Shown here one piece after another: positions 12,915-18,160 of a stretch of 24,209 nt of DNA (the first letter of the stretch is position 1; each line of letters opens with the position of its first letter). The stretch covers positions 1 through 24,209 of IMG/VR virus record IMGVR_UViG_3300043427_001060; one strand, given 5' to 3'. The position numbers were made by a program, and so were the translations under genes. The notes under the pieces were generated by a model. That model did no database searches. It had not been told where the DNA came from and saw nothing but the letters and a program-made list of their open reading frames with translations. The stretch comes from a virus.

Positions 12915-13169
12915 GTGGGTACCTCTCGTGTTATCAAGATCGGAGACGCTCTCAGCCAGTTGCTGAACGTGGCGTTCTGGCCGCGACATCACGAAACCAC
13001 CGCAAACGAGTCTCTGTCGGGGCGGGCGTACCGCCAAAAGTGGGTCAAGACCCAGAAGTTCTTGGACTGGGTGTTCAGCCCGTGGGAACAAGAGCATTGC
13101 CGCCTCTCTCATGAGGCAGACGTGCGCCGTGCGGCGCAGTTCCTAAACGCAGAGAAAGCTAGGAAATGA
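12915..13169 (+). CDS. Small conserved phage protein at the head of the lysis genes
   Basis: An 84-residue protein starting at GTG 12915 with GGAAAG (12902-12907) seven bases upstream. The pattern 'NESLSGRAYR..W......LDWVF....HC..S...E..R' belongs to a small protein often found next to holin and endolysin genes in phages of proteobacteria, including 'ISARAYR' and 'W..HCR' blocks. There is no transmembrane segment and no signal peptide. Function is unknown; an accessory role in lysis timing is suggested only by company. It overlaps the holin start by ATGA (13166-13169). Confidence 0.7.
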   Translation: MGTSRVIKIGDALSQLLNVAFWPRHHETTANESLSGRAYRQKWVKTQKFLDWVFSPWEQEHCRLSHEADVRRAAQFLNAEKARK

Positions 13170-13438
13170 GCCCGCAAGAGCATGCCGTGAGCACAGTAGA
13201 CACCACCATGGCTGCCGTGGGCAGCAAAGCAACCTACGCAGGCGCGACCACGACGGTCGGGGCGTGGTTCCTCTCCTCCGAGTTTGGCGTCCTGATGGGC
13301 GTTCTGATCGGTATCGTCGGCGTATCCATCCAGTGGTACTACAAGCACAAGCTGACGATGGCCGAGATTCGCTACAAACAAGAACAGAACGAACGCGAAA
13401 AAGAGGCTCACGAGCGCCTGATGGGCCGCCGTCGGTGA
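13166..13438 (+). CDS. Holin (pinholin-like)
   Basis: A 90-residue membrane protein expected to trigger lysis. Residues about 18-37 are moderately hydrophobic and rich in Ala, Gly, Ser and Thr, like a signal-anchor-release first helix; 40-58 form a strong transmembrane segment; 59-90 is a charged tail rich in Lys/Arg/Glu/Gln. That layout matches class II holins and in particular the phage 21 pinholin, which works with a SAR endolysin such as the one in the next gene. AGGA lies before the ATG at 13166. A second Met at residue 15 (13208) could give a shorter form, as holin/antiholin pairs do, but its ribosome site is weak. The endolysin gene starts one base after its stop. Confidence 0.75.
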   Translation: MSPQEHAVSTVDTTMAAVGSKATYAGATTTVGAWFLSSEFGVLMGVLIGIVGVSIQWYYKHKLTMAEIRYKQEQNEREKEAHERLMGRRR

Positions 13439-13903: not shown

Positions 13904-14404
13904 ATGTGGTACCTGCTGAACCCCAAAGTCTGGATTGCAGCCGTGCTTGTGGTGGTTCTGGCAGGTACGCACTTCTCGGCCTATCGGTCCGGGCGCAGCC
14001 ACGTATTGGCCGCGTGGAACAAGGAAAAGGCCGAGCTTACGGCCAAGGCGTTCGACGCCGAACGCGCAGCGCGCACCAAGGAACAGGCGCTGGTGGTTCA
14101 GCGCCAACAAGCGGAGAAACGCTATGTTGAAGAAAAGCGCAAAGCGGCTACTGCCGCCCTTGCTAGTCAGTCTGCTCTTGACAGCCTGCGCCACGCCCTC
14201 GACGAGCGTGATCGCGCCATTGCCGCCGCAGATTCCGCCACCTCCGCCCGAGCTAATGGAGGAGCCCGACTTGAGCGTGACTTACTCGGAAGTTGTGCAA
14301 CGGCTCTTACAGAGCTGGGTGCAGAAGCTGACCGACTGGAAGCGAGGATCGTAGGACTCCAGTCGTACGTCAAGCAGGTATGCCTCAAGCAGCAAACCCC
14401 GTAG
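13904..14404 (+). CDS. Rz: Inner-membrane spanin Rz
   Basis: The 166-residue product is the inner-membrane half of the spanin, which fuses inner and outer membranes in the last step of lysis of Gram-negative hosts. Residues about 9-26 (VWIAAVLVVVLAGTHFSA) form one N-terminal transmembrane helix; residues about 35-110 are a Lys/Glu/Ala/Gln-rich coiled coil in the periplasm. The start at ATG 13904 follows the endolysin stop by two bases; the frame is open upstream to 13802, but that extension reads through endolysin sequence and would destroy the N-terminal anchor. The C-terminus overlaps the next gene by 25 bases. The Rz1 gene lies wholly inside it. Confidence 0.85.
   Translation: MWYLLNPKVWIAAVLVVVLAGTHFSAYRSGRSHVLAAWNKEKAELTAKAFDAERAARTKEQALVVQRQQAEKRYVEEKRKAATAALASQSALDSLRHALDERDRAIAAADSATSARANGGARLERDLLGSCATALTELGAEADRLEARIVGLQSYVKQVCLKQQTP
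14124..14354 (+). CDS. Rz1: Outer-membrane spanin lipoprotein Rz1, nested in Rz
   Basis: A 76-residue lipoprotein encoded in another frame entirely inside Rz. It has a basic start (MLKKSAKR), a hydrophobic stretch (9-19), a lipobox ending in Cys22 (LLLTAC), and a proline-rich region (residues 32-42, with PPPPPP), all hallmarks of Rz1. GCGGAG (14111-14116) lies seven bases before the ATG at 14124, which decides the start over the long upstream open frame. It should be anchored in the outer membrane by lipid and bind Rz to span the periplasm. Residues 50-76 are possibly helical. This nested arrangement is well known from lambda. Confidence 0.9.
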   Translation: MLKKSAKRLLPPLLVSLLLTACATPSTSVIAPLPPQIPPPPPELMEEPDLSVTYSEVVQRLLQSWVQKLTDWKRGS

Positions 14405-14790
14405 AGCCAGAGCACGCCGAGCGGTTCGAGCAGTTCTTGCTTCAGTGGCAGGAGAAGCTAAACCTTAAAGATTGGCGGATCAACCTGTCGCCCGTTCGTC
14501 ACAAGGGCGTGATGGCCGTCGTCTACAAAATGGACTTCGAGCAGCGCCAAGCCACCATCCGGCTTGGGTTCGACTTCGGCAGCGATGCCGTCGATGACGT
14601 CTCGCTAGAGGCGACCGCGCTGCACGAGCTACTGCACATCATGTTGTGTGAATTGATGGAGCTGGCCAAAGAAGCCAGCACGCAGGGCGATCCTTTGCGC
14701 AGCGCGGAGCATCGCGTCATTAACACTCTGGAGCGCCTGTTGGTGTTGGAGAAGATAAGTCATGGTGAAACCCGTCCTCAACGAAAGTGA
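14380..14790 (+). CDS. HExxH zinc-metallopeptidase-like protein
   Basis: A 136-residue protein with an ALHELLHIML helix: H82, E83 and H86 form the HExxH zinc-binding and catalytic motif, in a hydrophobic setting typical of gluzincin/SprT-like folds. A third ligand could be E110 or H111 in 'SAEHRVINTLERL' near the C-terminal helix. The N-terminus has 'LNLKDWRINLSP', then a beta-rich segment (40-65), resembling the mini-metalloprotease layout of phage proteins of unknown substrate. The ATG at 14380 lies inside the Rz 3' end with only a weak AGG upstream, and the stop at 14788-14790 overlaps the next gene by 29 bases. Substrate and role are unknown; no signal peptide suggests it acts in the cytoplasm or virion. 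Confidence 0.65.
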   Translation: MPQAANPVEPEHAERFEQFLLQWQEKLNLKDWRINLSPVRHKGVMAVVYKMDFEQRQATIRLGFDFGSDAVDDVSLEATALHELLHIMLCELMELAKEASTQGDPLRSAEHRVINTLERLLVLEKISHGETRPQRK

Positions 14791-15742
14791 GTTCATAAGC
14801 CTGTGGCAGCAGCTCGGCTCGCCTCGGGAGATCGCTAAGTTGCTCAACATAACCGAACGGGCCGTGTACGACCGCCGCGCCCGACTGGAGCAGCGCGGAG
14901 TCGTCTTGGCGACAACGAGCGAGAAGGGGACCAAGTACGCGCTAGAGACGGCCCAGATGGTGGTCAATTCGCGCCGCGACGTCATCCGCTTCAACATCAG
15001 CGACGGAGTCATCCTCGTGGGCAGTGACGCGCACTACAGCCCCGGCCACGTGCCGGTGGCGCACAAGGCGCTGTGCAATTTGCTAGTCGATCTCAAGTCG
15101 GAGGTCAGGGCGGTCATACTTAACGGCGACATTCTTGACGGCGGCATGGCATCGAGACATCCCCGGATTCGCTGGAAAAAAGCCCCGACCATCCATCAAG
15201 AACTGGAGGCGGTCAAGGAGCGACTCGGCGACATCGAGAAGATTCGCCCGGGCGGCTGCAAACTCATGCGCACCTATGGCAACCACTGCGCCCGCTTTGA
15301 GACCCGGCTGTCCAACCAAGTGCCCGAGTTCGAGGGCATCCAAGGGTTCCTGCTGCGCGACCACCTGCCGCACTGGGAGGACAGCGAGCGCATCGACATC
15401 AACGACGATTGCGTGGTGATCCACGATTGGCATGCCGGGGTGCACAGCGGCTGGAACGATGTCCTCAAGGGCGGCTGCCACACGGTGACCGGCCACACTC
15501 ACGAACTGTCGGCCAAGGCGCACAAGGGGTTCAAGAACACCCACTACGGCATCAAGACCGGAATGCTGGCTGACGAGTGGCAAGACGAGTTCTCCTACCG
15601 CCAGAGCAAGCCGGGGTTCAACTGGGCGTCGGGTTTCGCGGTCCTCACGTGGAAGAACGGGATGCTGCTGCACCCTGAGTTTTGTGCGGTGCGGGACGAC
15701 GGCAACGCCTACTTCCGGGGCAAGCTGTACGCAACGCCATGA
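14762..15742 (+). CDS. Calcineurin-like metallophosphoesterase with N-terminal helix-turn-helix
   Basis: A 326-residue protein. Residues about 15-45 ('GSPREIAKLLNITERAVYDRRARLEQRG') look like a DNA-binding helix-turn-helix. The rest carries the metallophosphoesterase signature: D89 and H91 in SDAH, D123 and D126 in NGDILDGG, N174 and H175 in YGNH, H221 (and H224) in IHDWHAG, and H245/H247 in TGHTH. These would bind two metal ions and cleave phosphomono- or diesters. GGAG (14748-14751) lies before the ATG at 14762. Similar genes occur in many phages; their substrate is not known to me. Adjacency to the HExxH gene and to membrane/lysis genes is a feature of this window. The helix-turn-helix plus enzyme makes nucleic acid a plausible substrate; that is inference. 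Confidence 0.85.
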   Translation: MVKPVLNESEFISLWQQLGSPREIAKLLNITERAVYDRRARLEQRGVVLATTSEKGTKYALETAQMVVNSRRDVIRFNISDGVILVGSDAHYSPGHVPVAHKALCNLLVDLKSEVRAVILNGDILDGGMASRHPRIRWKKAPTIHQELEAVKERLGDIEKIRPGGCKLMRTYGNHCARFETRLSNQVPEFEGIQGFLLRDHLPHWEDSERIDINDDCVVIHDWHAGVHSGWNDVLKGGCHTVTGHTHELSAKAHKGFKNTHYGIKTGMLADEWQDEFSYRQSKPGFNWASGFAVLTWKNGMLLHPEFCAVRDDGNAYFRGKLYATP

Positions 15743-15882
15743 GCGGCTGGCTCATCATCGCCACGGGGCTGGCTTACGCTTGGGTAGCCGTCGAGCAGGC
15801 GTCCAAGGGCAACGTCAACATGACCATCGTCTACGCCGGGTACGCCTTCAGCAATATCGGCCTGTACCTCATGGCAAAGTGA
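15739..15882 (+). CDS. Small two-helix membrane protein
   Basis: A 47-residue protein starting inside the previous stop (ATGA, 15739-15742). It has two hydrophobic segments, about residues 4-17 (WLIIATGLAYAWVAV) and 27-44 (MTIVYAGYAFSNIGLYLM), with the polar link EQASKGNVN. I recall similar small proteins in other phages ('VAVDQ..KGN...A..F.GYAFSN.GL'), but no established function. It may tune the holin, or be part of a late membrane function. The same frame is open further upstream but that reading overlaps the phosphoesterase gene, so the ATGA start is favoured. Confidence 0.7.
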   Translation: MSGWLIIATGLAYAWVAVEQASKGNVNMTIVYAGYAFSNIGLYLMAK

Positions 15883-15955: not shown

Positions 15956-18160
15956 ATGACGATTCTCTCCACCAAAGTGTTCGGCGGCGAGATTCCACGG
16001 ATTCCTGCCGACAAGTTGCCCGCCAACAATGCGCAAGAAGCGGTCAACTGCAACTTCGCGTATGGAGAGCTGCGTCCGACCAAAGGCACCTTCTTGCTGC
16101 GCAACCTTGCCAACGCGGCCAAGGCACTGTTCAGCCTTGAAGGAGTGCGTTTCGCTTCGTGGACCAACCGCACCAAAGCGTGGCGCGGCCCGGTCATTGA
16201 CGACCAGTTCAGCCGCTTCTACTACACGGCAGAAAACGGCGGCTTCCGCGTAGCGCAGCACACCCTGCTTGGCACCAACGGCGGCGAACCGGCGACCAAC
16301 TACGCCGTGGGCGTACCCCCGGTTGCAGCGGCCCCCACCTACGTGCTGGAGGACCGGACGACCCTGCCCGACTACCCGAATGCGTCAGTGCGCCTGTACA
16401 GCTATTACGAGCAGAACGGAGCGCGTTTCGAGGAAACGCAGATTTCCAACTTCACCACGGTAAAGGCTTTCCGCGAGTACACCTTCACCGCTGCTGCTCC
16501 AGTCAACACGACGCCGACGGGCAGCGCGTCGAACACGGTGACGATCACGTCGCTGACGTACCAGCAAAACACCGGGACGATAACGGACCCCGCGTATGTG
16601 TCCAACACGATCAGCGTAGACCCGCCAGCGGCGGCAACTCTTGAGGACTCGTCCACGGTCGTAGTGGGCGGCACTGTCTACGGCAGCGTCACCTCGATCA
16701 CGCCCCAAGGAAAAGCCCCAACCACCCCGGGCGCGATTCTGGAAGGGCGCAACACGCAGGTGGGCGCGTCTACCCCGGAAACGGCTCGACTGGGCGTGCG
16801 GCTCGAAGTGGTTGACACGGTTAAGAACGCCACGCTGTTTACACTCTCGACGACCGACGGCGGCACCTCGACTCGCTCGGAAGTGGTTCCCGGCGGCGTG
16901 GATGCAACCCTGAGCAAGAACGGCACGACCGCAAACGCTTGGAGGCTTGTACTGAACTACGGCGTCTTGAGCACCCGGGCGTACGTGGTGACGATGGTCA
17001 ACAACTGGAACGAGGAGTCCAAGCCATCGCCGCCCGTGGTGGTCAGCCCGACGTACCTGCAAAGCGTAAGACTCACGTTCACTCCGCCGTCGTTTACGGG
17101 CTACGTGCCTTGCACGCGCTTTCGCATGTACCGCTCGACCGGGACGGGCGACTACCTGTCGCTGACTACCACGCCCCAGTTCTTCAGCGGAACCTCGGTC
17201 ACCTACACCGATGCGGCGTCTACGATCACTCAGACGGACGCCATCTTGGAGTCCACCGGCTGGGATTTGCCGCCCACCAACCTGCGCGGGCTGACGCTGT
17301 TGCCCAACGGGTTCTTCGCCGCGTTCAACGGCAACACGCTGTACTTCAGCGAGCCGTACCGCCCGTGGGCGTGGCCGTATGCGATGACGTTCCCGGTCAA
17401 CCTCGTGGGCATGCGCTCCATCGAGAACTCGCTGGTCGTCACGACGCTGACCTATCCGTTCATGGTATCGGGCGTACACCCGGACGCGATGACGCAGGCT
17501 CAACTCAGCACGTCGCAAGCGGGCGTCTCGGATCACGGCATGTGCGTGGTGGGCAACACGGTCGCGTACATCTCGAACGACGGCATCGCCGTGATCGACG
17601 GCTACAACGTGGACCTGAGCCTGAGCCAGAAATTCTGGACCCGCGAAGTCTGGCGTCAGCAGTTCGGGACGGTGCTCTCCCAGTTGGAGCTGGCCTACCA
17701 CGACGGCGCAGTGGTGTGCGGCGCTTCGACCGCAGGAAAGATGTGGGAGCTGCGCATCGACGCCGAAGGCGGCGGCAACCTGAGCAAACTGGACAGCACC
17801 ACCCGAGCCGATGCGCTGTACGTCCTCCCGGCGTCTGACCAGCTCTACCTGATGCAAGGCACCGGCCTGTACCAGTACAAGGGCGGCAGCGACGTGACGT
17901 ACACGTGGCACAGCAAAGAGTTCATCCTGCCTAAGCCGATCAACTTCGGAGCGGGGTACATCAACACAACGGGTCCGGTGACTCTGACGCTGTACGCCGA
18001 CGGCGTGCAGTGGGGCTCGCCCATGACGTTTACGGCCCCGAGCTACTTCCGCGTCGCTTCGGGTAGCAAGAGCCTGCGCTGGTCGTACAAGCTATCGGGC
18101 ACCGGGATCGTGAAGGAAATTTCTATCGCCGAGACCATGAGCGAGCTGCGCGATGTCTGA
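15956..18160 (+). CDS. Large tail structural protein, nozzle-like
   Basis: A 734-residue protein beginning 'MTILSTKVFGGEIPRIPADKLPANNAQEAVNCNFAYGELRP', a start found in a group of short-tailed-phage proteins that I place with the tail nozzle (T7 gp12/P22 gp10 position). Most of it is beta-rich; residues about 480-600 ('HGMCVVGNTVAYISNDGIAVIDGYN') read like blades of a propeller, and residues about 150-320 include Thr/Val/Ser-rich inserted domains. It lacks tape-measure features. GGAAAG lies before the ATG at 15956; a possible promoter lies in the gap upstream. The next gene overlaps its end by eight bases. Structural identity is likely; the nozzle assignment is moderate because it rests on style rather than alignment. 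Confidence 0.6.
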   Translation: MTILSTKVFGGEIPRIPADKLPANNAQEAVNCNFAYGELRPTKGTFLLRNLANAAKALFSLEGVRFASWTNRTKAWRGPVIDDQFSRFYYTAENGGFRVAQHTLLGTNGGEPATNYAVGVPPVAAAPTYVLEDRTTLPDYPNASVRLYSYYEQNGARFEETQISNFTTVKAFREYTFTAAAPVNTTPTGSASNTVTITSLTYQQNTGTITDPAYVSNTISVDPPAAATLEDSSTVVVGGTVYGSVTSITPQGKAPTTPGAILEGRNTQVGASTPETARLGVRLEVVDTVKNATLFTLSTTDGGTSTRSEVVPGGVDATLSKNGTTANAWRLVLNYGVLSTRAYVVTMVNNWNEESKPSPPVVVSPTYLQSVRLTFTPPSFTGYVPCTRFRMYRSTGTGDYLSLTTTPQFFSGTSVTYTDAASTITQTDAILESTGWDLPPTNLRGLTLLPNGFFAAFNGNTLYFSEPYRPWAWPYAMTFPVNLVGMRSIENSLVVTTLTYPFMVSGVHPDAMTQAQLSTSQAGVSDHGMCVVGNTVAYISNDGIAVIDGYNVDLSLSQKFWTREVWRQQFGTVLSQLELAYHDGAVVCGASTAGKMWELRIDAEGGGNLSKLDSTTRADALYVLPASDQLYLMQGTGLYQYKGGSDVTYTWHSKEFILPKPINFGAGYINTTGPVTLTLYADGVQWGSPMTFTAPSYFRVASGSKSLRWSYKLSGTGIVKEISIAETMSELRDV

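Follow-up and report, generated by a model that had tools for sequence, protein, structure and literature searches.

In phage genomes, a small predicted peptidase (HEX, named for its HExxH motif) is coupled to a helix-turn-helix metallophosphoesterase (HTH-MPE, here MPE): among 98 clusters of HEX-bearing contigs, seven end within 900 nt downstream, and in all 91 with at least 900 nt the next gene, on the same strand, encodes an HTH-MPE (best 80 relatives per scan). This coupling is the solid result of our analysis, and the pairing is kept while partners are exchanged on either side; the substrate that we assign to it is putative. At a probability of roughly 0.45, we propose that HEX and MPE are a co-translated protease-nuclease pair acting on DNA with bound or crosslinked protein.

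The cassette was analyzed in the window, a 24,209-base virus record from IMG/VR that is itself a record fragment (Table 1). Our ORF calls agree exactly with the three overlapping genes proposed in the first-pass annotation, with overlaps of 25 (Rz/HEX), 29 (HEX/MPE) and 4 bases (MPE/TM), and Pfam or PHROG matches back the lysis genes upstream (holin, endolysin, Rz and Rz1). Its descriptions of the products also hold: the first protein carries HExxH at residues 82–86, the second combines the usual metal ligands, invariant in its aligned relatives, with an HTH that matches HTH_23 below the gathering score, and the third (TM) is a 47-residue membrane protein in which two hydrophobic stretches, the putative helices, can be read.

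Table 1. Features of the cassette and its lysis-side neighbors in the window
Feature	Position	Strand	Evidence and remarks
Holin	13166..13438	+	Pfam Phage_holin_2_4, E 3.7e-10; context
Endolysin, phage lysozyme	13440..13901	+	Pfam Phage_lysozyme, E 6.7e-38; context
Rz-like inner-membrane spanin	13904..14404	+	phrog_312, E 1.7e-15; context; last 25 bases shared with HEX
Rz1-like spanin, in another frame within Rz	14124..14354	+	phrog_456, E 3.5e-4; lipobox read from sequence; context
HEX, 136-aa minimal zincin, predicted gluzincin-type peptidase	14380..14790	+	ORF; AlphaFold2 model; nearest folds minigluzincins and Spartan
HExxH motif, HEX residues 82-86	14623..14637	+	In 141/142 distinct HEX sequences, the remaining one a fragment
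E110-H111 of HEX; E110 candidate third zinc ligand	14707..14712	+	Invariant in 50/50 alignment rows; topology as in the zincin core of PMC5512222
MPE, 326-aa HTH-metallophosphoesterase, predicted DP1/Mre11-like fold	14762..15742	+	phrog_221, E 9.3e-20; AlphaFold2; VIA-align
N-terminal HTH of MPE, residues 12-47	14795..14902	+	Pfam HTH_23, E 3.8e-4, below gathering score
Predicted calcineurin-like phosphoesterase core of MPE, residues 82-320	15005..15721	+	Invariant metal-ligand motifs; fold matches
TM, 47-aa two-helix membrane protein	15739..15882	+	13-member alignment; present in 80/91 HEX modules

Alignment scans of IMG/VR returned at least 561 candidate relatives of HEX, at least 596 of MPE and at least 573 of TM, from which we analyzed the best 80 per scan, together with 80 from a scan with divergent HEX; loci with shared sequence were merged (335 loci into 188 clusters), and ORFs were called mechanically. 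The HEX and MPE proteins of the window recur unchanged in one IMG/VR contig (L006), and the window MPE is 73–74% identical to those of loci L007 and L008. By tblastn against 50,697 phage records, HEX was found in MW202879 only and MPE in five records. The gene order in MW202879, an assembled phage genome (holin, M15 endolysin, HEX, MPE, TM, "stabilization protein"), is the same as in the window. One scan of genome contigs for host prophages gave one relative, located on a Prosthecobacter MAG contig. Purifying selection acts on HEX, MPE and TM, which are real genes: dN/dS is 0.04–0.29 across six pairs of loci for each of the three; these values and the same order in independent contigs indicate that the arrangement is more than chance.

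HEX is an undescribed family of predicted peptidases within a known superfamily: it had no match in Pfam, PHROG or NCBIfam, and modeling predicts a peptidase that is a minimal zincin of the gluzincin type. The AlphaFold2 model (pLDDT 88.3; alignment A6, 50 rows) runs from an N-terminal helix through three strands to the HExxH helix (residues 73–98) and a second C-terminal helix (103–129), so that the motif is predicted to sit on the first of the C-terminal helices and E110, 24 residues past its second His, on the second. The model agrees in topology with the zincin core of PMC5512222, where the corresponding Glu is a zinc ligand. Structural matches to the model were selecase (Z 7.2), TTHA0227 (6.7), proabylysin (5.9), projannalysin (5.7), Spartan (6mdw, 5.4), Wss1 (4.3) and IrrE (3.4), the best of them lying within the range that the tool calls common, as do 6mdw and 5ln5 (Z 4.3); the top Foldseek match had an E-value of 3e-3 with low TM-scores. 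The minigluzincins (selecase, projannalysin and proabylysin) resemble HEX in having a core of about 100 residues with an N-helix, a small sheet, the HExxH helix and another helix after it, and they are its best zincin match both by structure and by sequence profile (best PDB entry 4jix, E 0.063); unlike them, HEX is phage-borne, tied to an HTH-MPE and without a significant sequence match. The fold predicted for HEX may also be similar to the minimal one of Spartan and Wss1, the SprT/WLM proteases of DNA-protein crosslinks. Their third zinc ligand is a His, from which the Glu of HEX differs, a point against the protease-nuclease reading. Sequence does not support HEX as a SprT protein, as the Pfam SprT-like model found 1 of 51 HEX members (E 0.13) and a profile comparison with the SprT-like partner family introduced below aligned 18 columns at 14% probability. 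Pfam Peptidase_M78 (PF06114) gave weak matches to 14 of the 51, with E-values of up to 1 and 0.026 as the best. PMC4559962 groups Wss1 and Spartan with the minigluzincins.

MPE is classed by its motifs and its phrog_221 match as a calcineurin-like metallophosphoesterase; Pfam Metallophos_2 matched below the cut-off. The metal-ligand motifs D89xH91, GD123xxD126, GNH175, H221 and GH245xH247 are invariant in 89 aligned rows (alignment A7, the window plus 88 of 105 listed relatives). The best VIA-align match of its AlphaFold2 model (pLDDT 87.9) was PolD DP1 (Z 15.4, 3.6 Å over 221 residues), and further fold matches, at Z 12.8–14.5, were the polymerase delta B-subunit, Vps29/YfcE, LpxH and Mre11 (12.9). 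From this predicted DP1/Mre11-like fold we infer nuclease activity; Vps29, YfcE and LpxH, which score 13–14, make the fold a promiscuous one and count against a nuclease. DP1, a 3'-5' exonuclease, and Mre11/SbcD share the calcineurin-like core and metal motifs with MPE, from which they differ in that MPE has its own N-terminal HTH and is 11–16% identical to them. No DP2 or Rad50/SbcC gene was seen beside MPE in the window, a fragment in which such an absence is uninformative. In one relative (L122:4780-6717), the MPE is 645 aa long and has an intein-like insert directly behind the catalytic GNH motif, with Cys first, LAGLIDADG-like motifs, and Asn last before Cys.

A lack of co-occurrence elsewhere, part of what the first-pass annotation named as refuting it, is not what we see, with HEX beside an HTH-MPE in 91 of 91 clusters. 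The HEX and MPE genes are tightly spaced: the distance between them falls within -35 to +7 nt for all 94 type-A pairs, and 79 of these overlap. Of the 91 HEX-paired MPEs, 88 are of the window type and three belong to other lineages. One of the three (L023, also fetched as L260) is a different phrog_221 branch (E 5e-52), and the other two (L024 and L025) are phrog_704 proteins annotated as "DNA repair exonuclease" (E 3e-129 and 4e-120). The phrog_704 phage phosphoesterases, like MPE, join an HTH to a metallophosphoesterase, and they are a different lineage that replaces the window-type MPE behind HEX at these loci. The phrog_704 gene of L025 matches 2020 phage records; such a phosphoesterase lies in the replication region of E. 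coli phage Lidtsur, and in RcSalem it follows the spanins, with no peptidase beside it. The HEX tree places the window HEX with those of L023, L024 and L025 (support 100/88 and 99/96), on long branches for which the program warns of false joins; all four share a one-residue insertion, and three of the four share another. The window HEX groups with these three although the window MPE is of the common type, and the HEX family has thus been joined to three lineages of predicted nuclease. An HTH is present in each of the MPE lineages found with HEX, those of L023 and L024 resembling LysR-type HTHs.

Strict adjacency and overlap, and an HTH in every paired lineage, are also what would be seen if HEX cleaved its neighbor, switching the HTH-MPE (or a repressor) on or off. 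In the ImmA/ImmR and IrrE/DdrO protease-repressor pairs, ImmA acts on ImmR, and IrrE on DdrO, by cleavage. There, too, a small zincin adjoins an HTH protein, and the weak Peptidase_M78 similarity of HEX points the same way, as does the argument of PMC5512222 that zincins process phage polypeptides. IrrE, however, is a weak fold match of HEX, and the HTH partner of HEX is an enzyme rather than a stand-alone repressor. HEX-less MPEs (rows L002–L004), moreover, retain the N-terminal region that holds the HTH. Furthermore, peptidases unrelated to the zincin can take its place beside MPE, unlike in the ImmA/ImmR and IrrE/DdrO pairs, and partners that span zincin and proteasome-like families fit a shared substrate better than a single cleavage site. 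We regard processing of the neighbor as the main rival and as unlikely.

The exchange on the protease side was seen in a corrected tally of 159 MPE clusters (best 80 per scan), of which 95 have HEX, 31 a SprT-like gene, 5 an HslV-like gene, 2 other zincins and 24 none, with 2 at contig ends; the locus with the interrupted MPE (L122) was counted as HEX, and L176 as another zincin ORF. No MPE in these 159 clusters has two kinds of peptidase. A peptidase is thus adjacent in 133 of the 157 MPE clusters with room, a proportion inflated by the HEX queries, and absent in 24, which counts against the protease-nuclease reading. In clusters fetched by MPE queries alone, and with L122 again counted as HEX, a peptidase was adjacent in 41 of 61 (19 HEX, 15 SprT-like, 5 HslV-like, 2 other; 20 had none), and 2 more lay at contig ends. 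Among HEX-less MPE clusters, 33 of 64 have an HExxH ORF directly beside MPE, compared with 11 of 289 other long ORFs at the same loci that have an HExxH ORF of 60–180 aa beside them (HEX itself in four of the 11), a difference with a Fisher p of 1.5e-19 computed on clusters that are related rather than independent.

The main alternative partner is a SprT-like family of about 115 aa, encoded downstream of MPE, mostly overlapping it by 4 nt, or upstream, overlapping it by 1 nt. L171 and L178 pass the cut-off of the Pfam SprT-like model, L002 matches it below the cut-off, and a PDB search with the family profile gives a weak match to Spartan (E 0.85). In MW202674 (L002), the SprT-like gene (15966-16310) is unannotated and has 4 bases in common with the phosphoesterase gene at the 3' end of the latter. 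SprT-like proteins have been reported in mycobacteriophages (PMC12363180). Five MPEs have an HslV/proteasome-like partner (phrog_1040, E 1e-24 to 5e-32), with Pfam Proteasome above the cut-off in L119 only. SprT-like, HslV-like and TM genes also occur with no MPE nearby, which counts against the protease-nuclease reading. Many loci without a peptidase (L139, L153, L156, L161 and L166) have, upstream of MPE, a gene for an 88–98-aa protein that overlaps the MPE start.

TM is a looser partner. It is present in 80 of 91 HEX modules and absent from 11, it overlaps MPE by 4 nt at 59 of the 76 junctions measured, and 24 of 130 TM clusters have no HEX, MPE, SprT-like or HslV-like gene within 1.8 kb; some phages with TM, P19250A for one, have neither HEX nor MPE. 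The single translated unit of three genes suggested in the first-pass annotation therefore stands for the coupled zincin and HTH-MPE and is too strong for TM, and the robust unit is the protease-MPE pair. TM had no match in NCBIfam and a best E-value of 0.03 against PHROGs. In P19250A, a cultured Methylophilaceae phage, a SprT-like gene (L335:36954-37301) adjoins the holin gene while TM lies elsewhere, and no MPE was found with the profiles used. At four loci (L187:6144-6581, L235:6009-6575, L188 and L193), HslV-like peptidase genes adjoin a 47-aa TM, with no MPE in the fetched stretch. Behind one phrog_704-type MPE (L024:7535-7771) lies a gene for a 78-aa hydrophobic, membrane-like protein, with a 4-base overlap, which the TM profile did not match.

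HEX modules sit with lysis rather than replication genes, which counts against a substrate of DNA and protein. PHROG matches around HEX loci (122 of 148 listed neighbors) are mostly endolysins, spanins and holins, whereas among the neighbors of HEX-less MPEs (116 of 146 listed) there are fewer lysis genes and several endonuclease families, with Holliday junction resolvase-like and Ref-like ones among them, which speaks for the protease-nuclease reading; both sets leave out contig-end rows and doubtful antisense ORFs. A lysis-type gene lies within 3 kb in 50 of 55 HEX clusters and in 15 of 39 HEX-less MPE clusters, in a sample biased by queries that all came from HEX loci. This proximity, and the presence of LpxH among the fold matches of MPE, would suit a lysis or envelope accessory, with the envelope as the target of HEX and TM and a lipid or wall phosphate as that of MPE; the HTH, the lack of a signal peptide in HEX or MPE as read by eye, and the recombination genes near HEX-less MPEs make such a role very unlikely. 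Nor do we favor a plain virion or lysis component, given the HEX-less figure and the finding that no such family convincingly matches HEX, MPE or TM, which agrees with the first-pass view that the cassette has no expected part in virion or lysis. Directly 3' of the cassette in the window lies the gene for a 734-aa internal virion protein (phrog_511, E 1.7e-87), a late position that might indicate processing of a virion protein or an injected enzyme pair; the gene after the cassette varies among relatives, and we give this explanation little credence. The place near late genes, the swappable parts and enzyme classes able to act on signals would also fit counter-defense, in which MPE would remove a nucleotide signal or defense nucleic acid and the protease a defense protein. 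PADLOC found no match for the three window proteins, DNA enzymes are among the nearest folds, and strict pairing under strong purifying selection is less expected of a shuffled anti-defense island, so we consider counter-defense improbable.

Because partners are exchangeable while the pairing of an HTH nuclease-like enzyme with a small peptidase is kept, a substrate made of DNA and protein is the common denominator that we favor, and the persistence of the partnership when one member is swapped suggests that the two clear or process protein-bound DNA together. Removal of bound or crosslinked protein is proposed from the SprT-like family that holds the peptidase place beside other MPEs and from the Spartan-like fold predicted for HEX, and the late position next to lysis genes suggests cleaning before packaging. 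The HTH would bring the DP1/Mre11-like phosphoesterase to DNA, where MPE would cut or trim strands while HEX, as a small zincin, would degrade the protein part in the manner of the cellular Spartan/Wss1 proteases; the pair would thereby clean or mend the phage DNA after replication, ahead of packaging or in its course, with TM perhaps anchoring the complex in the membrane. Our data show the gene structure, its conservation, the strict HEX-MPE coupling, the partner exchange, and the predicted folds and catalytic residues; for this protease-nuclease pair we infer both enzymatic activities, the shared substrate, the timing and the purpose.

More tentatively, as something possible rather than probable, the loci may represent an unnamed, modular phage DNA-decontamination system in which an HTH-tethered DP1/Mre11-like nuclease works late in infection with any small protease (gluzincin, SprT-like or HslV-like) encoded in its operon, ridding phage DNA of proteins that are crosslinked or tightly bound to it. 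Our literature search, with most subscription journals outside its reach, found no report of an HTH-phosphoesterase paired with unrelated small proteases. Such a system, if real, would amount to a minimal viral version of the repair that Mre11 and Spartan carry out in cells. If protein-bound DNA is indeed what the pair acts on, phages would possess a compact crosslink-clearing route of their own, and the many phage phosphoesterases annotated simply as "metallophosphoesterase" or "DNA repair exonuclease" would gain a testable function.
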